A stretch of DNA of 39,662 nt from a virus: the IMG/VR virus record IMGVR_UViG_3300037086_000074, positions 1-39,662 of that record; one strand, written 5' to 3'. Position 1 is the first letter of the stretch. Each line of letters begins with the position of its first letter. Under the pieces are notes generated by a model. It had not been told where the DNA came from and made no database searches. It worked only from the letters and a program-made list of their open reading frames with translations. Below, piece after piece: positions 6,664 to 9,074 of this stretch. The position numbers and the translations under genes were made by a program.

Positions 6664-6948
6664 TTACTCATCCTTACCAGGTTCGTTGCCGGATGTGAAT
6701 ACGACTTGCGAGAGTGACCCTTGCTCGCGCTGCCAGGCCACGAACCAAGACGCGAACGAGTTAACGGCTGCCTTGTCGTCCAAGTCGGGTAGAACGACCT
6801 CGGTTTCCATTGCGAACCGGAGCCACTCGCGCATCGGGCAGCCGTTCTCGTGAAGCCACCACGACTCGGGGCGCTCGGCCTTCTCCTTGCCGTATGCGCG
6901 GACGGCGCCGCATAGCGGTACGCATTGGGGTCTACGTGTGTCGCTCAC
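6664..6948 (-). CDS. Hypothetical protein, 94 aa
   Basis: Unknown protein with scattered tryptophans (ESWWLHENGCPMREWLRFAM, then SWFVAWQREQG). Two early cysteines (CVPLC) and one at residue 37 do not form a clear metal site. The GTG start at 6948 has AAGGAGG nine bases upstream. It is transcribed away from the plus-strand HNH gene, and the 73-bp gap between them must hold the HNH promoter and probably one for this gene. Confidence 0.65.
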   Translation of the reverse strand: MSDTRRPQCVPLCGAVRAYGKEKAERPESWWLHENGCPMREWLRFAMETEVVLPDLDDKAAVNSFASWFVAWQREQGSLSQVVFTSGNEPGKDE

Positions 6949-7006
6949 GCTACGATTCCTCCTTAGGGGCGAGCGCCGGAGTCGGAGAGCCGGGGCGGCG
7001 CGTTTG

Positions 7007-7021
7007 TGGTAAAATACCCGT
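7007..7021 (+). promoter_or_regulatory. Extended -10 promoter giving a probable leaderless HNH mRNA
   Basis: TGG then TAAAAT (7010-7015) is an extended -10 element (TGnTAnnnT). The ATG of the HNH ORF lies at 7022, exactly six bases after the hexamer, so transcription should begin on or next to the A of the start codon. No Shine-Dalgarno is present between them and no good -35 is visible. This geometry is typical of leaderless genes in Actinomycetota. The same transcript would run into tRNA-Tyr. Confidence 0.6.
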
Positions 7022-7441
7022 ATGCCCTACAACGCGGAAAATATGGCCGCGTACATCACGCGGTACCGTCGCGGCCGACGGCAAGAGGCAATCGACTTCC
7101 TCGGCGGCGTCTGCGCCGAATGCGGTTCGACCGATGGCCTCGAGTTCGACCACATCGACCCGAGCACTAAGGTTGCCTCCATCGCCTCTATGCTTACCGT
7201 CAGCAAGAGACGGTTTTGGGAGGAAGTCCGCAAGTGTCAACTTCTCTGCGCCGCGTGCCACGATGCGCGCACCAAGACGCAAGGGCTTCCCGATCCGTGG
7301 AACAAGGGCTTGCACGTCGTTCGGCATGGCACCGAATGGGAATACCGCTTGGGTTGTCGCTGTGATTCGTGTGGGGCCGCTAAGCGCGCAGCACGGCAAC
7401 GAGGGGGAGCTTCCGGGACGGCGATCGGAGCCGGTCTGTAA
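7022..7441 (+). CDS. HNH endonuclease overlapping tRNA-Tyr, 139 aa
   Basis: Free-standing HNH nuclease. CAEC (31-34), FDHID (42-46, the catalytic His region) and CAAC (76-79) form the zinc-bound beta-beta-alpha-metal fold. The C-terminal HGTEWEYRLGCRCDSC (102-117) is a module often seen in actinobacterial phage HNH proteins. It is one of only four plus-strand genes and appears leaderless. The last 13 codons and the stop lie inside tRNA-Tyr; the TAA stop uses the second and third anticodon bases. It might be a homing-type nuclease associated with the tRNA, which is inference. Confidence 0.8.
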   Translation: MPYNAENMAAYITRYRRGRRQEAIDFLGGVCAECGSTDGLEFDHIDPSTKVASIASMLTVSKRRFWEEVRKCQLLCAACHDARTKTQGLPDPWNKGLHVVRHGTEWEYRLGCRCDSCGAAKRAARQRGGASGTAIGAGL

Positions 7442-7485
7442 AACCGGTGCCTCTGGCTTAGCCAGTTCGAATCTGGCCTCCCCCA
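7403..7485 (+). tRNA. tRNA-Tyr (anticodon GTA)
   Basis: A full cloverleaf can be drawn: acceptor GGGGGAG/CTCCCCC, D-stem TCCG/CGGA, anticodon stem CCGGT/ACCGG with loop CTGTAAA (anticodon GTA at 7438-7440), long variable arm GCC-TCT-GGC, and T-arm GCCAG-TTCGAAT-CTGGC. The long variable arm fits bacterial tRNA-Tyr. The discriminator is A and CCA is not encoded. Position 8 is C instead of the usual T, which is odd. The 5' half is also the 3' end of the HNH ORF. Because the integrase lies 560 bp away, the 3' end may overlap an attachment site; this is not shown. Confidence 0.92.
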
Positions 7486-7509
7486 TTGTCTCGCCTGAGA
7501 GTGTTCGAC

Positions 7510-8049
7510 TCACTCCTCGCCCACCTTTGGAAAACGTCCGCTACTTACGATGTGATAAACGAAAATCAGATCGTCCTCCTTGCGCTCAAAATTCAGGGTG
7601 GTGAGGAGGACGCGTCCTTCAGAGCCATCCGCCAGGCGAAGGGTCACCTCGTCCGGGAAGGGATCTTCTGCGAATGGCCGTTTGGCCCTAAACGTTCCGC
7701 GCCATCCAGACAGGCCAAATTGCCCGTCACCATAGAGACGAAAATCGGTTTCACCCTCAATAGTCGAATCAACCCAGGTAAGCGTTGCGGGGCTCATGCC
7801 GCATCCTCCCATGACAGTCCCCTTATGAACCAGAAGGTACTCCCGCTTAGCGCGATCTTCTCCCCACTCGAAACGGGCCAGTTGTTCCTTCGCATAGGCG
7901 ATGGCCTCGCCCGCATCAGCACCACGCGCCTCAAGTTCTTCCAGGTGCGCTAGCTCCTCCCGCCATCGGGACGTAGCGGGATGCTCGCCCAGTGGGTAGA
8001 AGCGGCGTGTTTCGTCGGGGTTGCGCGCTTCGGCCAGTAGATCGCTCAT
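7510..8049 (-). CDS. Hypothetical two-part protein with internal repeat of its own start region, 179 aa
   Basis: Unknown function. The ORF starts at ATG 8049, overlapping the integrase stop (ATGA). Residues 1-79 are a charged helical region (EELAHLEELEARGADAGEAI). From residue 80 the frame runs through VMGGCGMSPATL, where a 32-bp block identical to the upstream start region supplies a second ribosome site (GGGAGGA) and an in-frame ATG at 7797. From there a 95-residue beta-rich part (DFRLYGDGQFGLSGWRGTF, then DLIFVYHIVS) could be made alone. It may therefore yield a long and a short protein. It converges on tRNA-Tyr with a 24-bp gap. Confidence 0.7.
   Translation of the reverse strand: MSDLLAEARNPDETRRFYPLGEHPATSRWREELAHLEELEARGADAGEAIAYAKEQLARFEWGEDRAKREYLLVHKGTVMGGCGMSPATLTWVDSTIEGETDFRLYGDGQFGLSGWRGTFRAKRPFAEDPFPDEVTLRLADGSEGRVLLTTLNFERKEDDLIFVYHIVSSGRFPKVGEE
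7792..7823 (-). repeat. 32-bp direct repeat, internal copy
   Basis: Identical to 8044-8075, exactly 252 bp (84 codons) away. On the minus strand it contains GGGAGGATGCGGCATGAGC, a ribosome site plus a start codon, here in frame inside the 179-residue ORF. Confidence 0.9.
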
Positions 8050-8075
8050 GCCGCATCCTCCCATGACAGTCCCCT
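8044..8075 (-). repeat. 32-bp direct repeat, copy at integrase end
   Basis: This copy codes for the last integrase residues (SWEDAA and stop) in one frame and holds the ribosome site and start of the downstream gene in another. The second copy is at 7792-7823. The 220 bp between the copies look inserted or duplicated. Confidence 0.9.
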
Positions 8076-9074
8076 AACCCGATCCATCGCCTGTTCCTGC
8101 TCCAGAAACCGCAGATAGATCGCCGTCGTAGCAAGTTGTCGATGCCCGAGCAACGCCCGTAGCCCCTCCAGGTCGCCCGGATTCGACTTCAAGTAGTAGA
8201 CCGCGAACGCAGCCCGGAGCGCGTGAACGTGCGTCTCCACGCCCGCCTTTCGCCCGCACGCCTTCACGATCTCCCAGATGCAACGGTCATCCCGATCCTC
8301 TTTCCCGTCGAGCACTTCCTTGGAGTAGAAGGCGTACGGGGCCGGCGGTACGAGGAAGTCGGTCGCCTTCGCCCAGACGCCGGAGTCGGCCGCCTCGTCG
8401 AGCACGGGGCGGAGCTCATCCGGGACGGGCTTCCATATCGTCTTCCCGCCCTTCTCCTTGAACCTCATGTGCCCGTTCTTGCGGTCGTAGTCGCGGCGGC
8501 GGAGACGGGAGACGGCGCGCCGGCGCGGGCCCATGTAGACGAGGATCATCAGACAGATCGTGTGCGTCCAGACGCGGCGGGTCTGGGTCGACGCGAGAGC
8601 GTCAAGGGCGCGAGCGGCGGCAAGCAGCTTCGGCACGTCCTCGGATGAGACGTGGGTTACGTCGAGCTCGTCGGCGGGTATCCGCTTCGTCCGCTGTATC
8701 CGGTCCATCGGGTTCGCTTTGATCTTGCGGTTGAGGTAGCACCACTTGAACGCGGATGAGAGGACGGCTTCGGCGTGCGCGATCGTGCCCCGGCTTAGCC
8801 CTTTCATGGAGCCGAGGTAGCGGCGCACGTCGTCTTCTTTCACGTCGCTGATGTCGTAGTCGAGCGGCAGCCGGTCTGTGAAGCCGCGGAGGATTCGCCG
8901 GTATGTGCTGATTGTGCGCTCGGACCATCCTCGGCGCAGGCCGTCGTCGAGGAAGTCGTCAAAGGCGCGGTCTGGGGTCATCATGTCGCGCACGATAACC
9001 TCGGCCGCCCCGCTCCCGTTGGCGGGCGTGGGGGCGGGAGCGGGAGCGTGGCCCTCAGCGCCGTAGCGGGCCAT
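8046..9074 (-). CDS. int: Tyrosine integrase, 342 aa
   Basis: Site-specific recombinase that would integrate the phage genome, marking it as temperate. The N-terminal part carries a Pro/Ala-rich stretch (10-20) and then a SAM-like core-binding domain (about 33-125, with WSERTISTYRRIL). Catalytic residues visible: Arg 184 in MGPRRRAVSRL, Lys in FKEKGGK (about 208), His 284 and Arg 287 in HALRAAF, His 311 in GHRQ, and the nucleophile Tyr 320 in TTAIYLRF. Length is normal. The start ATG overlaps the preceding stop (TGATG). It lies in the early operon rather than alone. The nearest attachment-site candidate is tRNA-Tyr at 7403-7485. Confidence 0.93.
   Translation of the reverse strand: MARYGAEGHAPAPAPTPANGSGAAEVIVRDMMTPDRAFDDFLDDGLRRGWSERTISTYRRILRGFTDRLPLDYDISDVKEDDVRRYLGSMKGLSRGTIAHAEAVLSSAFKWCYLNRKIKANPMDRIQRTKRIPADELDVTHVSSEDVPKLLAAARALDALASTQTRRVWTHTICLMILVYMGPRRRAVSRLRRRDYDRKNGHMRFKEKGGKTIWKPVPDELRPVLDEAADSGVWAKATDFLVPPAPYAFYSKEVLDGKEDRDDRCIWEIVKACGRKAGVETHVHALRAAFAVYYLKSNPGDLEGLRALLGHRQLATTAIYLRFLEQEQAMDRVRGLSWEDAA

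Follow-up and report, generated by a model that had tools for sequence, protein, structure and literature searches.

A phage HNH endonuclease gene ends inside a tRNA-Tyr gene and follows an apparent relic of the original one

The window, by which we mean the whole stretch of DNA analysed (39,662 bases), is an IMG/VR virus record of a tailed phage; it carries genes for portal, terminase, capsid, an Erf-type annealing protein, an exonuclease and a primase/helicase. One locus in it joins an HNH endonuclease gene to a tRNA gene, with an integrase gene beyond. Its features, several of which are defined by comparison with a related viral contig (L004), are as follows.

6945-6966, + strand: 5' flank of the original tRNA-Tyr gene, common to L004 (the local alignment runs from L004 tRNA position -22)
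6967-6998, + strand: relic of the original tRNA-Tyr, positions 1-32 (5' half into the anticodon stem), 28/32 identical to the L004 tRNA-Tyr
6999-7026, + strand: likely further remains (anticodon loop, 3' stem, variable region), GTAA..ACCCGT.TGCC vs. L004 positions 33-49; includes the -10-like box and the HNH ATG
7007-7015, + strand: putative extended -10-like sequence TGGTAAAAT, the sole match to TGNTANAAT in the window
7022-7441, + strand: free-standing HNH endonuclease ORF, 139 aa, ATG start (phrog_4234, E 9e-33)
7403-7485, + strand: present tRNA-Tyr(GTA) called by ARAGORN, 83 nt with a long variable arm; CCA is not encoded
7403-7435, + strand: replacement tRNA 5' half, equal to HNH codons 128-138; no tRNA 5' half in the set gives a good alignment with it
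7436-7485, + strand: tRNA 3' half, in one tRNA-Tyr family with the relic; best matches are the tRNA-Tyr genes of Karimac, Navo and L004
7439-7441, + strand: HNH stop codon TAA, equal to tRNA bases 35, 36 and 37
8046-9074, - strand: tyrosine integrase (Phage_integrase, E 2.7e-13), 67% identical to the L004 integrase

The HNH gene encodes a separate protein, a phage free-standing HNH endonuclease that lies outside any self-splicing intron or intein. Its match in PHROGs covers residues 4-127, and phrog_4234 was matched by all 35 members of the HNH family alignment. The zinc-binding and D-H...C-H residues (C31, C34, D43, H44, C72, C76 and H80) were invariant in these 35 homologues. In Pfam, the window's protein fell under the HNH cut-off, and nine of 16 family members matched. 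Because residue 127 ends at 7402, the conserved part of the protein stops exactly where the tRNA starts. The preliminary description of this DNA had raised the prospect of homologues that end well before 7403; conservation was found to reach approximately residue 117-127, that is, up to the tRNA. In an AlphaFold (AF2) model (pLDDT 88), the body of the protein is predicted with confidence, and a C-terminal helix (residues 115-130) ends approximately where the tRNA begins. The tRNA-encoded tail was modelled with low confidence; it is thus probably dispensable. When the model was compared with the PDB using Foldseek, only weak HNH matches were returned (E above 0.1).

ARAGORN called a single tRNA in the whole window, the tRNA-Tyr(GTA), in which four stems of four close. 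The HNH ORF overlaps it by 39 nt. The proposal in the preliminary description that the 3' end of the HNH gene is the 5' half of a tRNA-Tyr was therefore correct. The accompanying proposal, that the stop codon is formed from the anticodon, was also borne out: bases 35 and 36 are two of the three anticodon bases, and the third base of the stop is base 37. Positions 7432-7480 are 88% identical to Streptomyces phage tRNA-Tyr. The Rfam tRNA model, however, gave no score for the present tRNA-Tyr even at E 10, whereas it scored the tRNA-Tyr of L004 at 42 bits, which marks the present tRNA as odd in its 5' half. Its sole Rfam match was to the tRNA-Sec model, at 33 bits and under that model's cut-off. 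The present tRNA-Tyr may be non-functional. As its RNAfold z-score was only -2, folding energy alone was given no weight.

What stood at this position before? The answer lies upstream of the HNH gene, in a relic (and hence an origin of the arrangement) that was absent from the preliminary description. Relic bases 1-31 score 42, whereas 4000 shuffles reached at most 30 and the best score elsewhere in the window was 23, and the match to L004 extends 22 bases into the 5' flank. Among approximately 400 phage tRNAs, the three best matches to the relic were the tRNA-Tyr genes of Karimac, Navo and L004, the same three that best match the 3' half of the present tRNA. When 5' halves were aligned with this set, the best score was 7 for the present 7403-7435 vs. 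24 for the relic; no tRNA 5' half among those compared resembles the substitute part, which is thus foreign to the lineage that held the original gene. Since the relic and the 3' half belong to one tRNA-Tyr family and the 5' half is unmatched, the original tRNA-Tyr appears to have been split in its anticodon arm, with the HNH gene inside and a foreign 5' half attached.

The L004 tRNA-Tyr is the sole tRNA of a 42.8-kb record and has the same length and the same place as that of the window. It is intact and has no HNH gene beside it, so L004 comes close to an empty site. It is the single such relative for the window, and a distant one, as the 67% integrase identity attests. Among relatives found by the SNF2 helicase (11 loci), there was no tRNA, HNH or integrase match, and a search with the exonuclease for further phage relatives returned no loci.

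The match of 6999-7026 to L004 positions 33-49 was equalled by approximately 20 of 5000 shuffles, and an extension of the relic past position 32, across the anticodon loop and up to the start codon of the HNH gene, is suggestive only. This stretch contains the extended -10 that had been placed six bases from the HNH ATG. Indeed, TGGTAAAAT ends 6 nt upstream of the ATG and is the one match to TGNTANAAT on both strands of the 39.7 kb. No -35 partner for it was found. From its placement, it is plausible that the HNH gene is leaderless. The location of the box is also suggestive in another respect: in the split tRNA, the anticodon loop (CTGTAAA) would fall at this spot. The box may thus be a remnant of that loop, promoter-active or not.

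To place the locus in a wider context, homologues were gathered by HNH protein similarity alone (80 IMG/VR loci plus annotated phages, 96 in all). A downstream tRNA was present within approximately 1.5 kb in 54 of the 96 loci and within 60 nt in 43; a complete tRNA lay within 60 nt upstream in 39. Of the non-redundant homologues, 39 were followed within 60 nt by a tRNA on the same strand; 30 of these stop inside it, one of them just 2 nt inside. The stops fall at tRNA bases 8-10 (10 loci), 13-15 (7), 20-22, 30, 36-43 and, once, 70; each of the three reading frames is represented, and the overlap is 2 to 72 nt long. The abutted tRNAs cover many isotypes (Lys, 13; Arg, 5; Pro, 4; others). The tRNA-encoded tail is unconserved, and the ORFs appear to continue into the tRNA up to whichever in-frame stop comes first. 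The HNH genes of PegLeg, Turret and Jada stop 0-12 nt before the tRNA (PegLeg gap, +3). As a control, we counted mechanical ORFs of 90-250 aa that end between 15 nt before and 45 nt inside a tRNA, a count that also includes spurious ORFs: 33 of 212 (16%) other same-strand tRNAs of those loci have such an ORF end, which in 22 cases lies inside the tRNA. Because the overlap recurs in homologues, chance was ruled out as its cause. The nuclease-tRNA cassette suggested from the window alone is thus borne out in other phages, many of them unrelated, in which members of this HNH family abut or enter the next tRNA.

Relics upstream of the HNH gene in L034, L059, L078 and other loci resemble the downstream tRNA in sequence or anticodon. 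The relic and the downstream tRNA share an isotype in five of nine cases, against 1.1 expected (permutation P 1.5e-4); a weaker test, based on anticodon motifs, gave P 0.01.

The survey also yielded several separate observations. A group of prophage-like loci (L044, L047, L049-L051, L055, L056, L066, L068 and L071-L073) has, in order, a tRNA-Thr-like 5' half (anticodon-like GGT), an HNH gene with a different C-terminus and a T-arm-like 3' piece, with no replacement 5' half. These loci are possibly an unrepaired version of the same split event. ARAGORN made no call on their joined halves, and they were therefore left out of the evidence. In L033 (1500-1872), an HNH homologue has an in-frame stop and a start codon inside the 3' end of the upstream tRNA-Gln. 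In L048 (1863-1936), the tRNA that ARAGORN called immediately downstream of the HNH gene has the anticodon TTA (reads UAA), and L080 has a tRNA-Pyl-like gene near its HNH gene; these could be suppressor tRNAs at loci where HNH genes borrow tRNA stops.

Pairs of phages with and without the HNH gene revealed how it is inserted. In Shaqnato, the first 26 bases of the tRNA-Gly resident in FudgeTart are kept (26/26), followed by the HNH gene and then by a different, complete tRNA-Gly. Similarly, compared to Nappy, the 5' half of tRNA-Thr(GGT) is kept in StephanieG, Kamryn and Dandelion (26/26, 24/26 and 26/26), and the HNH gene and a different, complete tRNA-Thr follow. The geometry differs in other pairs. 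Between PegLeg and Bongo, homology restarts inside the tRNA-Tyr, at base 28. In Mendera and Yut2, the HNH ORF fills what in Moby is a 3-nt spacer between tRNA-Lys and tRNA-Arg, and it stops inside the pre-existing tRNA-Arg (in Mendera, in the anticodon loop). As the whole downstream tRNA is new in some relatives and the HNH gene lies in a spacer in others, there is more than one insertion geometry. One further pair, SlimJimmy (L105) and Skinny (L018), was rejected as an empty-site comparison: the SlimJimmy HNH gene is internally deleted near a short stretch shared with Skinny (CAGCGGCACCGCG), its start and end remain, and the deletion is a case of HNH gene decay. Separately, Bhz51 (L103, 600-1232) has an extra segment of approximately 630 bp between tRNA-Ile and tRNA-His relative to Moby, which is another tRNA-spacer insertion.

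Comparison among phages shows what appear to be a split tRNA-Tyr, its relic, a foreign 5' half and the recurrence of this pattern in other phages. We consider it probable, at about three chances in four, that a homing-type HNH gene invaded the one tRNA-Tyr gene of the phage at its anticodon arm, left a relic and brought with it a substitute 5' half that restored a tRNA-Tyr. In such a course of events, a free-standing gene would insert in the anticodon arm, and the resident 5' half would stay upstream (6967-6998). The HNH gene would arrive without a stop codon of its own, adjoining the substitute tRNA 5' half (7403-7435); this and the 3' half would together make up a complete tRNA-Tyr again. 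The HNH frame would then extend into the new tRNA as far as the first stop in frame, which lies in the anticodon loop. The window's 3' half, too, could have come with the insert. By analogy with SegB, we infer that the enzyme would cut the tRNA genes of phages that lack the HNH gene and that repair would copy the HNH gene and the substitute tRNA (or half) from the donor. The altered tRNA would presumably resist further cutting and keep its tRNA function.

Why would the gene end inside the tRNA? The preliminary description proposed built-in control: the HNH gene and tRNA-Tyr would share one transcript, from which an RNase P cut at 7403 would remove the stop, such that tRNA maturation and HNH synthesis would exclude each other and the nuclease would be kept low. 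The geometry for this is exact and would suit most members of the family, 30 of the 39 homologues stopping inside the tRNA even though one mutation would give them a stop of their own. In addition, the available text of one article has the T4 segB and segG transcripts reportedly processed by RNase E, perhaps limiting expression (PMC2988022). But the stops before the tRNA, the variable overlap, the use of three frames and the unconserved, low-confidence tail argue that the overlap arose by insertion of a gene that lacked a stop, which accounts for the data without regulation. Control is thus unproven, and we think it somewhat unlikely as the explanation. Regulation and the insertion of a stop-less gene are equally compatible with the overlap, and an effect of tRNA processing on HNH synthesis, which we infer from the layout, may have been added to this insertion history.

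The relic could also be viewed as the remains of a second gene: two ancestral tRNA-Tyr genes would have stood in tandem, the HNH gene would have inserted in the gap that separated them, and the 3' half of the upstream copy would have been lost. Spacer insertion is real in Mendera and Yut2, and the complete upstream tRNAs in 39 of the 96 homologues are in keeping with it. However, L004 has but one tRNA in its whole record, and FudgeTart and Nappy have just one tRNA-Gly(gcc) and one tRNA-Thr(ggt), respectively, at the split site. We therefore regard a tandem origin as unlikely.

The integrase had been placed 560 bp away, and its ORF indeed lies that distance beyond the tRNA. In the window (7403-9074) and in L004 (6000-7414), the sole tRNA-Tyr adjoins homologous integrases, which makes it a candidate attachment site in both phages. 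It is conceivable that the tRNA-Tyr is simply the attP tRNA sequence beside the integrase and that the HNH overlap is incidental. That account has no place for the relic or the foreign 5' half, nor does it say why the pattern recurs in tRNA clusters of unrelated phages. Moreover, the 50-nt tRNA 3' half had no exact match in 84,980 species genomes and none in viral contigs, and the integrase had no relatives in genomes, hence no prophage relative; among viral contigs, L004 alone has a close one. As a full account, attachment is quite improbable, although the tRNA-Tyr may be an attachment site in addition to having been split by the HNH gene. Two sequence features were observed nearby. A perfect 32-nt direct repeat (7792-7823 and 8044-8075, 252 bp apart) lies where ORF 7510-8064 starts and the integrase gene ends; it resembles a small insertion or duplication, or else arm sites of the integrase. 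Inside the integrase gene, 26 nt (8861-8886) resemble a tRNA-Tyr anticodon arm (85%, E 0.03).

Group I introns typically carry HNH genes and insert in tRNA anticodon loops, but such an intron in the tRNA-Tyr gene is highly improbable here, as no Rfam intron family reached its gathering score in the window, there is no ribozyme core between the tRNA halves, the ORF occupies nearly the whole insert, and the tRNA downstream is complete and has a 5' half of its own.

How does the proposed insertion compare with known systems? Phages and islands that integrate into tRNA genes interrupt the gene near the anticodon and make it whole with element-borne sequence. There, an integrase acts and the 3' half is restored; in the window, a nuclease gene is present and the 5' half is replaced. 

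SegB of T4 and T6 is described as a free-standing homing endonuclease of the tRNA region that cuts within tRNA genes and spreads or amplifies them (PMC13096335, PMC2988022). The window's family shares the niche of an endonuclease gene among or against phage tRNA genes of many isotypes. SegB, however, is a GIY-YIG enzyme and the window's protein is an HNH enzyme, and the accessible portions of those articles do not describe for SegB a split tRNA with a replacement 5' half or a stop inside the tRNA. HNH genes in phage and mycobacterial tRNA arrays have been implicated in the diversity of the tRNA repertoire (PMC5966550, PMC6409571, citing Pope et al. 2014). Their genomic niche, and some of the phages, are the same; gene-splitting, relic halves and borrowed stops go unreported in the available sections of these two papers. 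The free-standing HNH genes mobE in nrdA (phage Aeh1) and mobA in gene 60 (T4) likewise lie inside a phage gene, but in the available account their targets are split into two genes, and no substitute part restores the target (PMC2988022).

Along with SegB, the closest known parallel comes from fungal mitochondria: in Allomyces atp6 and in Glomus atp6, atp9, cox2 and nad3, mobile ORFs make hybrid genes (PMC3630166). An endonuclease ORF inserts in a gene and brings a substitute piece, and the displaced resident piece becomes a relic. In the window, the displaced part is likewise kept beside the endonuclease ORF, as it is in Shaqnato and StephanieG. The mitochondrial cases differ in that protein genes are the targets, the 3' end is replaced and the enzymes are of the LAGLIDADG or GIY-YIG type, whereas the window has a phage tRNA, a replaced 5' half and an HNH enzyme. 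In the literature compared, which did not extend to Pope et al. 2014, we found no report of a phage HNH gene that splits tRNA genes, carries a replacement and borrows its stop.

A broader proposal is possible, but we hold it tentatively. Phage HNH genes of this kind may be widespread homing cassettes that split tRNA anticodon arms, supply a cut-resistant tRNA (or half) of the same isotype and borrow its stop; maturation by RNase P would then destroy the nuclease message and limit a dangerous enzyme. The split and replacement envisaged here would account for many of the HNH/tRNA overlaps seen in annotated genomes of phages; they also predict a cutting site, resistance of the carried tRNA and a nonstop mRNA. 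Earlier work, as represented in the accessible parts of two articles, tied HNH genes to diversity among phage tRNA arrays but gave no mechanism (PMC5966550, PMC6409571). The present locus offers a concrete route by which tRNA genes could be swapped between phages: a selfish nuclease would break a tRNA gene and carry its replacement. According to the available text of an article cited above, phage tRNAs, including tRNA-Tyr, help phages to escape tRNA-cutting defences such as Septu (PMC13096335); what remodels phage tRNAs would thus be of wider interest.
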